10,000 nt of DNA, taken from Hepatocystis sp. ex Piliocolobus tephrosceles (lineage: Eukaryota > Apicomplexa > Aconoidasida > Haemosporida > Plasmodiidae). The stretch is from NCBI GenBank assembly GCA_902459845.2, contig CABPSV020000199.1:1-10000 (forward strand). The letters are read 5' to 3'. Below the pieces are notes generated by a model. The model saw only the letters and a program-made list of their open reading frames with translations, was not told the origin of the DNA and did not search any database. Below, piece after piece: positions 864 through 9,996 of this stretch. Both the position numbers and the translations under genes were made by a program. The number at the start of each line of letters is the position of its first letter. The first letter of the stretch is position 1.

Positions 864-3011
864 ATGAGTAATCGGAAAAAATACGTATATATCGAATTTA
901 CGATAAACACAATTACCCTCGGTAAGGTATACTTCGAACTATTCAATGATAATGAAATTAAAAAATCAGTCGATAATTTTGTAAGTTTATGTAAAGGTAA
1001 TGAATATCATAGTATTTATTATGATGAAATGTTAAGCTATAAAAATTGTAGAATTGAAAAAATAAAAAAAAACAAATGTATAAAAACAGGTTATTTAAGA
1101 AATAAAGTATATATTGACAGTAATAATAAAAATAATAATAATTATAACAACAGAAATAATAATATTAATAAAAATGACAAATATGATAAAACTGAATGTA
1201 TTTATGGACAGTCATATAAAAAAGAATATTCTCAAAAAAAACACATTTGTGCTGGATTAATAACAATGATTCCTGTAAATAAAAATAAATATTCATCAAT
1301 TTTTAAAATCACACTTAATGCTGTACCTAAATATAACCATAAAAATATAATTATTGGAAGAGTAATTAAAAACATGCATATATTGAGAGCAATCGAATTT
1401 ATACCTGTAACTATTAACTATATTCCGAAGTTAGAAGTATATATATCCGATAGTGGTGAAGTGAGTCCTTATTTTTTTAAAAAAAATAAAAAATCACAGA
1501 GACAATCTTACATTGATAATTTATTTGCAACATATCTCGATACTAATGTAGAAAATACATCAGAAAGTTGTTCCAGTGATATGAGCGACACTGATAATAC
1601 AAGTGAAAGTATTTATTCTGACACGAGCATAAATGCTGATCTAAGTACTCTTTCAAAACATATTTCTAACTTAACAAATAGTGATAAAAAAAAAAAAAAA
1701 AAAAAAATTACAGAAAAACAAAAAGGGCTTAAACTATTGAATCAAATAGTAGCTAATATAGATAATAAAAATTATGAAAGGGGGAAAGGAAGTTCTAATT
1801 TGTTGGGTGGCGATGCAAATCGGAGTGATGACAACCGAAACGATAATAACCGAAACGATAACAACCGAAACGATAATAACCGAAACGATAATAACCGAAA
1901 CGATAATAACCGAAACGATAACAACGAACCTCAGTTAGGGAAAAAAAAAAACCACGTTAAAATGGTATTAGCACAGGATTACGAAAATATGAACAAAAAA
2001 ATGACTAACAGAGAAAAAAGATTGTTCGAAATTCAATTAAAAATAAACCAATCTAAACATTTAAATCAAGTTGAATCAAAAAAAGAAAAACAAACTAATA
2101 TTTATAGTACTACGTTTTATAATAACAAATCGGAGAATACACTTTTTGAGTATGACAAATACAAATTTGAAAATTCTGAATATGTTAAAAATGCTATACC
2201 AAAAAAAAAAGAACAAACTGAAATCCAACTTGAAAAAAAAAAAAAAAAAAACATTAAAGAAGCAACAATTAACGATAAAGAAGCAACCATTAAAGATAAA
2301 GAAGCAACCATTAAAGATAAAGAAGCAACCATTAAAGATAAAAAAACAGAGAAACAAACTTGTTCAAACAATCTTAGTGAAGACACTACAAAAACAACAA
2401 ATGTTAAACACACACAAACAGATGCACAAACAAATGTACAAACAGATGTACAAACAGATGCACAAACAGATGCACAAACAGATGCACAAACAGATGCACA
2501 AACTTCTTTAAATAATAATAGCGACGATACTCCAATCAAAGAAGAAAACGAGGCTGACCAATCGAATGTATACGACAAAATATACAACGTCAGTGCAATA
2601 TATGCAAAATATAAACATGGTAATAAAAAAAAAAATAACAGCAGCTACAATAATAGTAACGTTCTCGATAAAGATATAATTCTTTACAAAAAAATGAACT
2701 TAAACTTTTCTGTTAATCGTAAAATATATAATGATCAAAAAAAACAGTACGAAGATAAAACGTTTTATGGAAAAAATTTACTTATCAGTGATAAAACAGA
2801 ATGTTCTGAAAAACATAAAAAAAAAGTCATCGAATTTTGTAAAAAACAAGAAGAATTGAGAAAAAAAAATAGTAGAAAAAGAAAAGAGCAAAATGATATA
2901 TTTCAAAATTATATAAACAAAAGAAACAAAATTTATAACAAAAAATTAGATACTTTTTTTAATAAACACACTGTTGAAATTAGGCAAAACTTAGAGCGAA
3001 GACCATTGTAA
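864..3011 (+). CDS. cyclophilin-like domain fused to pre-mRNA splicing factor SYF2
   Basis: This is one open frame of 715 codons. Residues about 6-200 align with cyclophilins: VYFELF (22-27) matches the usual VFELF, DNFVSLCKG (37-45) the NFRALCTG segment, ECIYGQSYKKE (111-121) the SIYGEKFEDE loop, ICAGLITM (128-135) the PGLLSMAN strand, and NIIIGRV (161-167) the HVVFGKV strand. An Asn-rich insert fills 86-105. Most catalytic positions are changed, so isomerase activity is doubtful. A Ser/Asp-rich linker follows, then a 22-A poly-Lys tract (275-281) and Asn/Asp repeats. Residues about 378-410 (REKRLFEIQLKINQSKHLNQ) match the start of SYF2. Residues about 570-715 match its C-terminus, including NYINKRNKIYNKKLDTFF and EIRQNLER. 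In other eukaryotes SYF2 acts in the nucleus with the Prp19-associated spliceosome. The start is the first Met, directly before the cyclophilin strand. The gene may correspond to one of the large divergent Plasmodium cyclophilins, but I cannot say which. Confidence 0.9.
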   Translation: MSNRKKYVYIEFTINTITLGKVYFELFNDNEIKKSVDNFVSLCKGNEYHSIYYDEMLSYKNCRIEKIKKNKCIKTGYLRNKVYIDSNNKNNNNYNNRNNNINKNDKYDKTECIYGQSYKKEYSQKKHICAGLITMIPVNKNKYSSIFKITLNAVPKYNHKNIIIGRVIKNMHILRAIEFIPVTINYIPKLEVYISDSGEVSPYFFKKNKKSQRQSYIDNLFATYLDTNVENTSESCSSDMSDTDNTSESIYSDTSINADLSTLSKHISNLTNSDKKKKKKKITEKQKGLKLLNQIVANIDNKNYERGKGSSNLLGGDANRSDDNRNDNNRNDNNRNDNNRNDNNRNDNNRNDNNEPQLGKKKNHVKMVLAQDYENMNKKMTNREKRLFEIQLKINQSKHLNQVESKKEKQTNIYSTTFYNNKSENTLFEYDKYKFENSEYVKNAIPKKKEQTEIQLEKKKKKNIKEATINDKEATIKDKEATIKDKEATIKDKKTEKQTCSNNLSEDTTKTTNVKHTQTDAQTNVQTDVQTDAQTDAQTDAQTDAQTSLNNNSDDTPIKEENEADQSNVYDKIYNVSAIYAKYKHGNKKKNNSSYNNSNVLDKDIILYKKMNLNFSVNRKIYNDQKKQYEDKTFYGKNLLISDKTECSEKHKKKVIEFCKKQEELRKKNSRKRKEQNDIFQNYINKRNKIYNKKLDTFFNKHTVEIRQNLERRPL
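1833..1925 (+). repeat. in-frame 15-bp repeat encoding NRNDN units
   Basis: Six tandem copies of a 15-bp unit (aaccgaaacgataay) encode residues 324-354 as NRNDN repeats. Copies differ almost only at aac/aat synonymous positions. The array lies in the linker between the cyclophilin and SYF2 domains and is probably disordered. Confidence 0.85.
2256..2339 (+). repeat. in-frame 21-bp repeat encoding four KEATIKD heptads
   Basis: Four 21-bp units encode residues 465-492: KEATIND once, then KEATIKD three times, with a degenerate KKTEK tail. The exact 7-residue period with A and I at spaced positions could form a short helix or coiled coil. It lies within the insert that splits the SYF2 domain and follows a 19-A poly-Lys tract at 2233-2251. 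Confidence 0.85.
2415..2504 (+). repeat. in-frame 12-bp repeat encoding QT(D/N)(A/V)
   Basis: Seven and a half copies of a 12-bp unit (caaacagatgca and variants) encode residues 518-547 as QTDA, QTNV, QTDV and then four QTDA. The unit is polar and probably disordered. It is the third array in the low-complexity insert of the SYF2 half. Confidence 0.85.
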
Positions 3012-3589: not shown

Positions 3590-6427
3590 TTACAATTTCG
3601 CAATGCTCTTAAATGTTTTTTTGAAGGTTAAAAGTTTGGCTATTTGCAAAGGATCATGTGTTAAAGGAGGCACTATATTACCAACTGGATTTATAAAACG
3701 TGGTTCGATTAATTGATTAAAATCAGTAATAGAATTCATTTCTTTATTTAAATTGATATTTAATGATTTGTTATATACAGATTCTGTAAATAAATATGGA
3801 ATTTTATTAACATAATAAGTATTAAACTTTTTATCTTTTTTTTTTAATTTAGAAATCGTATGTAATGGTATATTTTTTTTTTTTTTTATTATTTCTTCTT
3901 CTTTTTTTTTTTTTTTTTTTTCCAACTCTATTAATGTATTATAATTGCACCATTCCGATACGTTTATTTGTTTTAGTTTTATTTTTTCGCTATCGCTTAA
4001 TGCGAGTAATTCTTCATCTTCTTTTTCATTTATTACTTCTTCAACGTTTATATAATTTTCATATTCATTGTATTCATCATTATAAATACTTATTTTTTCT
4101 CCAAACGTTTTAAGTACCATATCATTGTTAACATTATCAATATCAATTAAATCAGTTTTTTTTTGTACAATATTGTTACTAACAACATTGGAATTATCAC
4201 CTTCGTTTTCATTTGTTTCTAAAAAAGTATTCACTACGTCAGAGATTTCCACTACACTACTTACATCTGCTACACCACTTACATCTGCTACACCACTTAC
4301 ATCTACTACACCACTTACATCTGCTACACCACTTACATCTGCTACACCACTTACATCTACTACACCACTTACATCTGCTACACCACTTACATCTACTACA
4401 CCACTTACATCTGCTACACCACTTACATCTTCCAACTCAATGGATTGAATAATTTCATCCAGATTTAATATTTTTCTTTTTTTTAAATTATTAATAAAAT
4501 CAATATTATTTTTTAACTGTTCTTTTCCCTTTTTTAATTGCTTGTCACTCAAATTTTGAACTTTATTCGAATTTTCCATAAGTTTGGAATCTTTTACTAA
4601 ATTTTCTTCATCAGAAGAATAACAAGAATCGTCAGACAACTTATTATATTTTATTTTGTTTATGTTGTTACTATTGTCATTATTTATATTGTTATTATTG
4701 TCATCATTACTGATCATATTTAACAAAACTTTTCTTTTGTTTATAATATTTTCATTTATTTTATGTTCTTTTGCATTTTTCATAAAAGCAAATTTTTGTA
4801 ATTTTTTTTTTGTTTTTTTTTGTTTCATTCGTTTGTTTTCTTTGTCTTCATCTGTTGTTGTGTTGTTATCACTACCACTGTCATTTCCACTGTCATTTCC
4901 ACTAGCACCACCACCAACACCAACACCACCTCCCCAATCAACAGTATTATCTCCATACATAGAAGACGGATTATTAATTTCGGTTAATGCTTTTGTTATG
5001 ACCGTTTTAAGCATATTTTTTTTTTCTTTATTAGCTTGTACACTTTTTAAAATTTCTTTTTTAAGTCCCTCATTTTTATATTTATTTATCAAATTTAAAG
5101 TTTTTCTATTTTTTACATTACTTATAAGATTTCTTTTTTTTGCATATTCTTCTTCAAAATTATGTAACTGTTCAGCTAGTTCTGGAGCTTCTGTATATAA
5201 ATTTTTTAAAATTTTTTTTTCTTTTGATTTTAAATGTTTTCTATATGATTTAGATTTTATTTTTTTTCTGTAAATGGATTTACGTCTTTCTTCTTCTAGC
5301 ATTTTTCTTAACTCTATAATATGTCTTATTTCATTTCTTTTTTTAATTTTATCATTTAAAAAACTATTTTTTTCTATCATATTCATATCAGCGTGTTGTA
5401 TATTTTTTTTTAATTCTTCTTCAAATAATTTATTGCTCAATTCTTTATCTTCTTTTATTATAACATTTTTAATTTTAGGGTCTAAACTATTTTTATTAGT
5501 TCTATCTTCTTCTATTTTTTGTTTATACAAACTTACAACATTATTTTTTAACATTTCATCAGTTGTTAAAAACGTATTTTTCTTACATCCAAAATCAACT
5601 TTATATGAATTATTTATGTCACGAAACGAGTTTAGTATTATTTCTATATCTTCCATGTTTTCATTATACACTAATTTCGATCTATTTTTTTCTTCTTCTA
5701 ATGTAGAAACATATTTATTATAAATATTATATTTTTGTAAATCCATTTTATTTAATAATAACGTTAAATCTTCTTTTACTTTATTATTTAATAAAATATC
5801 ATCTATATTTATTAAATCGTTAAAATTAATTTCTTCGTTTGAATTTTTTATATTATAAATATTATCATGCATTGGTAAATATTTATAAGAATCTTTTTTT
5901 TCTCCATCTTCTTCATACTTATCACTTTTTTTTTTAGCACGATAATTTTTGTCCTTTTTTTCGTTGTCTTTTTTATAATTGTTTAAAAAAGTTATAAATT
6001 GTGTTGAATCATATTGTGCATTTTTTTCTGCACCTTCTCCACATGTTATGTCACCATCTATTATGGCATCTTCGATTTGAACCAGATTTTTATTTACCTC
6101 CGATGATGTACCATCTACTATATCTTCACTACTATTTGTACTTGTCAAAGGTATACTTTTTTTTTTTTTTTTTTTTTTTAGTACATTACTTTTTATATAT
6201 TTATCACGATCATTGCAGATATTTTTTTTCTCTCCTGTTTTGTTTATAATTTTTTTTTTGCTTTTTTTTTTATTAATTGTTTTTTGTTCTTCAACATCTA
6301 GACTTAGCCTGTTGCTATCTTTACTTTTCTTTAATTTTTCCATTAATTTTTTCTTCGATTTTTTCTTCGATTTTTCCACCGATTTTTTCTTCGATTTTTC
6401 CACTGATTTCTCCACTGATTTTTCCAT
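3590..6427 (-). CDS. UTP14: UTP14-like U3 snoRNP / small-subunit processome protein
   Basis: This is a single 945-codon frame. In other eukaryotes UTP14 is a nucleolar component of the small-subunit processome and stimulates the DEAH helicase Dhr1/DHX37, which releases U3 from pre-18S rRNA. The identification rests on [15 protein letters not shown] (386-400), matching the family KIKSKxYRK motif; a central [18 protein letters not shown] segment (416-433); and the C-terminal block: SEWCNY (824-829) in place of the usual GWGSW, then [25 protein letters not shown] (split as [10 protein letters not shown] 866-875 and [15 protein letters not shown] 876-890), DFNQLIEPR (902-910) and NPVGNIVPP (913-921). 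Length is close to yeast Utp14 (about 900). The N-terminus is a Lys/Ser/Glu repeat that could serve as a nuclear or nucleolar signal. Inserts include Gly-, Asn- and DVSGV-rich tracts. An in-frame TAA lies immediately upstream of the ATG, which fixes the start unless there is an upstream exon. Neighbours do not share its pathway. Confidence 0.88.
4250..4429 (-). repeat. 18-bp repeat, ten in-frame DVSGV(A/V) hexapeptides
   Basis: Ten tandem 18-bp units encode residues 667-726 of the UTP14-like protein. The last residue alternates A, V, A, V, A, A, V, A, A, V, and the tenth unit is DVSSVV. A degenerate copy (EISDVV) follows. The unit is unusual for this protein, whose other inserts are Lys/Asn-rich, because it is hydrophobic and acidic. 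Confidence 0.9.
6344..6427 (-). repeat. 12-bp repeat at the UTP14 N-terminus (VEKS/KKKS)
   Basis: Residues 1-28 of the UTP14-like protein consist of four-residue units, VEKS and KKKS, starting at the initiator Met. The charged repeat could act as a nuclear or nucleolar localisation signal; that is inference from composition only. Confidence 0.75.
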
Positions 6428-8350: not shown

Positions 8351-9996
8351 CTAATTCGAATTAATAAGTTTTAAAGAATCTTGCAATGCCTTAGTATAGT
8401 GGTTAACTGCCTGAACAATATCATCGTCTGCTGCTTCTCTTGTTTGAGATTCTAACATTAATCCGTTTTTAACTGCAGATAACTCTTCTAACACAAAATT
8501 CTGGAAACTAGCACTTTTTCCTTTTTTCTCTTTTTTTATTTCTTCGATGTAGGCCATTATTTCTTGGTATTTACTGTCTCTTATGTTCTGGCGTTAGCGA
8601 AAAAAAAAAAAAAAAAAAAAAAAAACATTTACATATGTATATATATATATATATATATGCACGTATGTACGTACGTATGTGTATGTACCTACATGAGTAA
8701 GTAAATAATGAATAATAAAAAAAATGTAAGTGACAATATGTGACAGTATGTGACAGTATGTGACAGTAAGTGACAGTATGTGACAGTAAGTGACAGTATG
8801 TGACAGTAAGTGACAGTATGTGACAGTATGTGACAGTATGTGAGTAAATAAACACGAACGTTTTTACACGCACATACCTTTTCGATGGATATTTTACTTT
8901 CCATTTTTTTCTCTATGTCTTCCAATCTTTTACACATGTTACCCTCTTTCTCCTTATTATTTATTTTGTCCTGATTAAACTGTAACTGTAAATTTGAAAA
9001 ATCTTTTGCAATATTATTTTTTTTTTTTTCCAAGTTTTGTATACATTTAACTTTTTCATTCTCAAAATTAACACTTATATTATTAACTTTATCATTCAAT
9101 ATTTTTATAGCTCCTTCAATTTGTAATACTTTATCATTTACAACATTTTCGATTTTTTCTTGTACTTTTAACAATTCAGATGAAAAAATATTTTGTATAT
9201 TTCTATTATGTTCTATTCTTTTTTTTATTTCGTTGTTTAAATTTTTTTCTAATTTTGTTATAGCTTCTCTAATTATATAAATTTTTTCTTTTTCTATATT
9301 TTTTTTTTGTATAATTTCATTTTTTATTTCTTTTTCAAATCCTTCGATTTTTTCACATAATCTTTTTATTTTTATTTTTGTATTATTATTAATACATTTA
9401 TCATTAATGTCAATTGATTTATTAGCTAGTTCACTAAACATTATATGTTCATCGTCAATTATACCATTATTAATATTTTTATTATTAACACTTTTATTAT
9501 TAATATTTTTATTATTAATACTTTTATTATTAATATTACTATTAGTACTAATACTACGATCATAAGCTATATTACTATTTTTTTTTAAACTACATCCAAG
9601 TCCTAATCTCTTATTACTTGAATTTCTTTCACTATAGCTATTTAGGTTACTTTTGTTAAAAAAATTGTCATTTTTATATGAACAGTTCATAATATTATTA
9701 TTATAATTTGTATTTTCTAAATTATGTAAACTGTTAATTACACTTTTTGTATTACTGTTTGTTTTTATGTTACAATAATTTTTTATATTACTTTCGTCAT
9801 TGTCCATATAACTACTACTACCACTATTATCTATACACATATCAGGAGTTATACTTTTATTTCCACTATTATTTATATACCTCGTATCTGTACTTATATG
9901 TCTTATATTTCTCTCATTATTACCGTAATCACTATTTAAGTGAGTACTTATATTCCCTATACTACTACCACTACCTATACCACTAGCGCTATCCAT
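8351..9996 (-). CDS. SF-assemblin, two exons (join 8351-8587, 8878-9996); 5' end at window edge
   Basis: Exon 1 (8878-9996) gives 373 codons and exon 2 (8351-8587) gives 78 codons plus stop; the join is in phase 0. Residues about 205-451 form one long coiled coil that matches SF-assemblin: KLEKNLNNEIKKRIEHNR (248-265), FSSELLKVQEKIE (271-283), then in exon 2 NGLMLESQTREAADDDIVQA (414-433) and VNHYTKALQDSLKLINS (434-450), the family's conserved C-terminus. SF-assemblins build striated fibres; in the apicomplexan Toxoplasma they tie the centrosome to daughter buds during division. Residues 1-200 are an Asn/Ser-rich extension not shared by algal assemblins. The splice model uses donor AAG/GTATGT and acceptor CGCCAG/AAC after a 26-T tract, and rests on the family match across the junction. 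The Met at 9996 is the first visible, but the codon before it is Ser with no stop, so the gene may start outside the window. Confidence 0.88.
8638..8658. repeat. (AT)n tract in the SF-assemblin intron
   Basis: This is an alternating AT run of about ten dinucleotides between the poly-pyrimidine tract and the intronic minisatellite. Confidence 0.85.
8731..8840. repeat. 10-bp intronic minisatellite TGACAGTATG, eleven units
   Basis: Eleven contiguous 10-bp units run from 8731 to 8840. The first is TGACAATATG, then TGACAGTATG twice, then TGACAGTAAG alternates with TGACAGTATG three times, and two further TGACAGTATG copies close the array. A degenerate twelfth unit starts TGAGTAA. The unit has no stop in any frame on the minus strand, which explains the artefactual open frames over it. 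Confidence 0.95.
9466..9537 (-). repeat. in-frame repeat encoding NINNK/SINNK units
   Basis: Residues 154-177 of the SF-assemblin protein are five-residue Asn/Lys units (NINNK, SINNK, NINNK, SVNNK, NINNG) from a 15-bp DNA unit. They lie in the low-complexity N-terminal extension, just before the coiled coil. Confidence 0.8.

Follow-up and report, generated by a model that had tools for sequence, protein, structure and literature searches.

A cyclophilin and the splicing factor SYF2 are joined in one protein of the haemosporidian parasite Hepatocystis, an orthologue of Plasmodium CYP81, and in this protein as in its 11 relatives the ligand pocket of the cyclophilin has been rewritten. We consider it likely that the protein is a spliceosomal SYF2 tethered to a conserved, non-catalytic pseudo-cyclophilin, which would serve as a binding or scaffold module. 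The fusion itself is mainly a correct rediscovery of a published architecture; the pocket loss in all 12 proteins is the less familiar part.

One reading frame carries a cyclophilin and SYF2

The gene lies in a 10,000-nucleotide stretch of contig CABPSV020000199.1, which we analysed as a whole (the window). A single plus-strand frame at 864-3011 stays open for 715 codons and needs no intron; its start codon agrees with that of most relatives (MSNRKKYVYIEF / MGRKKYVYLEF). The features of the gene are:

864..3011, plus strand: single-exon open reading frame of 715 aa, orthologue of Plasmodium CYP81 (ORF calling, relatives, alignment)
897..1451, plus strand: cyclophilin-type domain, residues 12-196, with the pocket replaced and a low-complexity Asn/Lys loop inside (PF00160, table of pocket residues)
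1464..1988, plus strand: variable linker, residues 201-375, pairwise identity 22-82% among 11 proteins (alignment)
1833..1925, plus strand: tandem repeat of a 15-bp unit, 6.2 copies, coding for the DNNRN-type repeats of the linker
1995..2099, plus strand: SYF2 N-terminal conserved segment, residues 378-412 (profile matches in SYF2 proteins)
2100..2573, plus strand: repeat-expanded loop within SYF2, residues 413-570 (44-158 residues among 11 proteins)
2255-2342: 21-bp repeat inside the SYF2 loop
2413-2503: 12-bp repeat inside the SYF2 loop
2580..2996, plus strand: C-terminal part of the SYF2 domain, residues 573-711 (PF08231; human chain 6qdv_y, E 1.6e-11)

Both Pfam domains score far above their gathering scores: Pro_isomerase (PF00160) reaches 60.5 bits against 21.7 (E 2.9e-16) at residues 12-196, and SYF2 (PF08231) reaches 76.7 bits against 23.5 (E 3.1e-21) at residues 573-711. 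The initial annotation had proposed an uninterrupted frame with an N-terminal cyclophilin and a SYF2 match in the C-terminal half, and both proposals stand. The relatives of the N-terminal part in the PDB, by sequence, are cyclophilins (best match 1qng_A, E 6.1e-13); with the last 141 residues as query, six of the seven PDB matches at E<=10 are spliceosomal SYF2 chains, 6qdv_y among them. The middle of the protein is low-complexity, and three of its coding tandem repeats have longer units (15, 21 and 12 bp).

The Pfam SYF2 model spans only the C-terminal part of SYF2, and for the N-terminal segment we built a profile from residues ~366-440 of 8 haemosporidian proteins (the window protein and seven relatives) and searched with all filters off. 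The test set held 121 SYF2 proteins, that is, human SYF2 and the best 120 of the 522 proteins matched at E<=1 by the SYF2 segment of a Chlamydomonas protein; 605 shuffled sequences served as control. At E<=1 the profile matched 114 of the 121 SYF2 proteins and 2 of the 605 shuffles, and at E<=1e-3 it matched 66 and none, respectively, counts that are not independent as the set includes many close kin. The stretch was placed in 111 of the 114 matching proteins, and in every one of these (111/111) it lies 159-207 residues from the C-terminus. Human SYF2 was matched weakly (E 0.63), and no SYF2 chain turned up when this profile was run against the PDB set. On the strength of the matches and their consistent placement we take the segment at residues 378-412 as real but divergent, which supports the earlier claim that both halves of SYF2 lie in this frame. 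The two parts are separated here by 158 residues, close to the 150-residue insert of the initial annotation; across 11 proteins, however, this distance ranges from 44 to 158 residues, and the region is therefore better read as a loop lengthened by repeats than as a discrete insertion.

Elsewhere in the window, a run of 61 T at 539-599 lies upstream of the gene; an A-rich tandem array with units of 7/20 bp (724-865) comes after it and extends as far as the start codon. On the minus strand, a 945-aa open reading frame at 3590-6427, which includes an 18-bp coding tandem repeat (4252-4430), weakly matches Utp14 at its C-terminal end (21.9 bits, short of the 30.2 that Pfam requires; E 7.6e-05) and probably encodes a divergent nucleolar processome protein. 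A further minus-strand frame at 8689-9996 carries an SF-assemblin/beta-giardin domain (E 7e-55); its terminal tail is encoded by a 10/40-bp repeat (8726-8843), so splicing probably joins this frame to its true 3' end. Searches of the window for tRNAs and Rfam families gave no match.

Orthology with CYP81 and the SYF2 complement of the genome

Ten relatives came from one protein search and the P. vivax protein from a second. Ten of these 11 bear Plasmodium species names, one of them as CYP81, and the remaining protein (P0009) was classed as haemosporidian by likeness; together with the window protein they make up the 12 haemosporidian proteins compared here. All 11 relatives have both Pfam domains, with the cyclophilin first and SYF2 last in the alignment of ten of them and, for P. 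vivax, in its own sequence. BLAST identity to the named Plasmodium proteins is 40-69% over 31-99% of the query, and overall identity to the ten aligned relatives is 45-51%. A tree of 20 rows separates the 12 haemosporidian rows from 8 algal-type rows with a split support of 100/100; the window protein forms a branch of its own, which the tree joins to no particular Plasmodium group. Both domains were matched in all 30 members of a mixed haemosporidian and algal-type alignment, and words taken from the P. relictum SYF2 gave 11 matches among 704 candidates, all of them haemosporidian-like proteins. With its N-terminal cyclophilin, its C-terminal SYF2 and its orthology with named members, the window protein belongs to the cyclophilin-SYF2 (CYP81/CSY1) family, and it has the conserved N-terminal segment and the C-terminal domain of a SYF2 splicing factor.

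Because eleven relatives carry both domains in the same order, the fusion is not an accident of assembly or reading frame. A chimera of two adjacent genes, made by the assembly or the gene model, would have the low-complexity linker in its favour and nothing more; those two-domain relatives, together with a family already published (PMC2713222), leave it with practically no credence. The two halves might instead part company after the gene is read, by cleavage of a precursor or by separate transcripts, to give one cyclophilin and one SYF2 protein, a thought invited by the long low-complexity linker and by an internal Met at residue 367. We hold this to be very unlikely: the frame is continuous in all 11 aligned proteins despite the fast change of the linker, and a Chlamydomonas protein has the identical domain order.

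A six-frame search of the 12.39-Mb assembly (611 contigs, completeness unknown) returned a single SYF2 match, the window gene itself, and thus no second, separate SYF2, in keeping with the initial reading of the fusion. The assembly also gave ten cyclophilin matches and members of the PRP19, SKIP and BUD31 families; a search for the CDC5 C-terminal family gave no match, which does not prove absence. NCBIfam assigned no family to three parasite proteins, and its Chlamydomonas matches fell far below the cut-offs.

The fusion in earlier work

The initial annotation suspected that the SYF2 part might have gone unnoticed, but the fusion is already known and was published in 2009, 2010, 2011 and 2024. 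Krücken and colleagues (2009; PMC2713222) described 'Cyps with SYF2 domain' in Plasmodium, Toxoplasma, Babesia, Theileria and C. muris, and pointed to a comparable domain arrangement in Tetrahymena, Paramecium and Ostreococcus; a 2010 meeting abstract listed SYF2 among the P. falciparum cyclophilin domains; and Tetrahymena CSY1 is given among the known fusions in PMC3143110 (2011). The 2024 review PMC11357558 includes PF3D7_0803000 (CYP81) and P. vivax PVP01_0117200 and gives a nuclear location for the P. falciparum protein, and PMC12606809 mentions PfCYP81 by name.

The Plasmodium proteins CYP81/PfCyp80.9 (PF3D7_0803000) and PvCyP65 (PVP01_0117200) share with the window protein the N-terminal cyclophilin, the long variable linker and the C-terminal SYF2, and P. 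falciparum CYP81 is, like the window gene, encoded by a single exon (PMC2713222); the linker repeats, in contrast, are species-specific. From its domains and length, the P. falciparum protein of our set (P0010, 676 aa) is presumably PF3D7_0803000. Compared by their published descriptions (PMC3143110, PMC2713222), Tetrahymena CSY1, its Paramecium orthologue, TgCyp66.2, BbCyp57.3 and CmCyp48.8 also hold a cyclophilin and SYF2 in one protein.

The haemosporidian cyclophilin half has lost its pocket residues

Four cyclophilin loci of the same genome serve as an internal control: the CypA-like gene L003 (1480-1992), whose pocket is intact, and loci L002, L004 and L005. The pocket positions, which we take to be R55, F60, M61, Q63, A101, Q111, F113, W121, L122 and H126 in human CypA numbering, were mapped through L003 (170 aa), in which 10 of 10 residues are kept. 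Although CypA, whether as L003 or as PfCYP19A (1QNG), belongs by sequence to the same cyclophilin domain family as the window protein, the latter keeps none of the ten (K K C K I I K K Y N). The changes F60K, Q63K, F113K and L122Y are each found in all 12 haemosporidian proteins, W121 is absent from all 12, R55 is retained in one and H126 in two; in the alignment, whose set does not include P. yoelii, the rodent, vivax-type, ovale and avian proteins resemble that of P. falciparum in this loss. The window protein lacks the residues of a catalytic cyclophilin (PPIase). Judged by its residues, the haemosporidian domain is a pseudo-cyclophilin stripped of those for isomerase activity and cyclosporin binding, and it is presumably inactive as an isomerase.

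PfCyp80.9 had been noted in 2009 as single-exon and aberrant; in Krücken et al. (PMC2713222) the latter label is given to the P. falciparum protein only, whereas here the pocket is rewritten in 12 of 12 proteins. A description of pocket loss across the genus was not found in the accessible literature, and subscription articles (Marin-Menendez and Bell, 2011) may contain one.

The haemosporidian cyclophilin domain is also strongly basic, with a net charge of +12 to +18 in the 12 proteins; the charge is -7 to +5 in 46 algal-type domains, some of them incomplete. Domains from four of the assembly's ten cyclophilin matches, all other than that of the window protein, have -2 to +2, and full-length L003 has +3. 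Because these other domains of the same genome are near neutral, the codon bias of AT-rich DNA is insufficient to explain the basic charge. The cyclophilin half is as conserved as SYF2 in haemosporidians: over the 55 pairs of 11 proteins, median pairwise identity is 0.69 for the cyclophilin domain and 0.67 for the C-terminal part of SYF2, and 0.30 and 0.22 for two variable stretches.

These figures bear on whether the domain is a dispensable passenger, drifting towards loss after relaxed selection had removed catalysis. The pocket columns are indeed conserved no more than the rest of the domain, with 4 of 12 invariant as against 73 of 186 over the domain (11 proteins, P. vivax not included); but we hold such drift to be unlikely, since the domain is kept at 60-91% pairwise identity beside the low medians of the variable stretches, and four replaced pocket positions hold the same residue in all 12 proteins. 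We also considered a new function seated at the former pocket; it is unsupported, the pocket columns being no more invariant than the others.

Continued action as an isomerase or chaperone on spliceosomal proteins, through a reshaped pocket, would account for a domain that is retained and conserved as much as SYF2, and the 2010 abstract reported that each of the eight P. falciparum cyclophilins or cyclophilin domains purified had chaperone activity, with isomerase activity in CYP19A and CYP19B only. All 12 proteins, however, have replacements at the equivalents of F60, Q63, F113 and W121, and 11 of the 12 at that of R55, and PfCyP81 could not be made as a recombinant protein according to PMC11357558; we regard continued catalysis or chaperoning as doubtful, and prefer a pseudo-cyclophilin that is conserved for something other than isomerization.

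Green algae carry the fusion, mostly with an intact pocket

The search with the Chlamydomonas SYF2 segment took in only proteins at least 0.55 times as long as the 505-letter query. Among the 120 matches listed of 522, 46 also match cyclophilin at E<=1e-5, and those named by organism are green algae (Chlamydomonas, Volvox, Chlorella, Trebouxia, Prototheca and others); the other 74 have no cyclophilin match, and their organism-named members are land plants. By these matches the cyclophilin-SYF2 fusion is widespread in green algae. The initial annotation had SYF2 as a separate small protein in yeast, plants and animals; taken as a statement on all other organisms, this fits the solved animal and fungal chains and the land-plant matches listed, but not green algae. 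Where organisms are named, none of the 120 matches listed of 522 comes from Toxoplasma, Theileria, Cryptosporidium, a ciliate or a dinoflagellate.

In animals, fungi and land plants, SYF2 stands alone: it has a C-terminal domain and an N-terminal segment like those of the window protein, and lacks the cyclophilin. The green-algal fusions, that of Chlamydomonas included, have the domain order of the window protein, but differ from it in their near-neutral charge and in their pocket, which is complete at all ten residues in 40 of 46; the other six have gaps or substitutions at one position or more. The tree branches that separate haemosporidian from algal-type rows measure 4.67 and 4.89 changes per column, which is too long to test common origin.

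The Chlamydomonas protein CHLRE_01g037400 is chain M of PDB entry 8XI2, deposited as 'PPIase cyclophilin-type domain-containing protein' and 100% identical over the queried segment to P0013 of our set. This cyclophilin fusion is the only SYF2-matching chain of 8XI2. In PMC11833078 Syf2 is listed in the NTR of the Chlamydomonas C* complex, and chain M, as the only SYF2-matching chain, is most probably that Syf2; the main text of PMC11833078, searched by word starts, gave no match for 'cyclophilin', 'PPIase', 'Cyp' or 'prolyl'. The Chlamydomonas fusion thus sits in a solved C* spliceosome, whereas the window protein is known from sequence.

A proposed role for the tethered pseudo-cyclophilin

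PMC8682746 describes how U2/U6 helix II is stabilised by yeast Syf2, which joins as a subunit of the NTC, and how human SYF2, after independent recruitment, binds helix II in its rearranged form. By analogy, the window protein would be a member of the spliceosome: its SYF2 part would enter the activated spliceosome as it does in yeast, humans and, there as a fusion, Chlamydomonas, and the long variable linker would covalently carry the N-terminal cyclophilin along. The SYF2 part would in this way keep the cyclophilin, as a non-catalytic module, close to the RNA core, where the module may bind or scaffold; RNA or an acidic partner suggests itself as the ligand because the former pocket is lysine-rich. 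SYF2 may be dispensable for some spliceosomes, since trypanosomes are reported to be apparently without a homologue (PMC8682746).

That the fusion tethers a cyclophilin to the Prp19-associated complex, as first proposed, is a fair idea, but the tethered domain of haemosporidians has lost its isomerase residues, so the useful reading is that of a pseudo-enzyme tether. A more specific and more tentative version, to which we give somewhat less than even chances, is that in the shared ancestor of all haemosporidians the isomerase half turned into a strongly basic pseudo-enzyme arm, anchored to the active spliceosome, that binds RNA or a partner near the U2/U6 RNA helix instead of isomerising prolines.

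Because mammals have no such fusion, SYF2-cyclophilins were put forward as targets for drugs specific to the parasites (PMC2713222); the loss of the pocket would matter for this idea, as cyclosporin-type ligands are not expected to fit. The pocket-intact algal fusion and the pocketless parasite fusion would together offer a clean comparison for the non-catalytic roles of spliceosomal cyclophilins.
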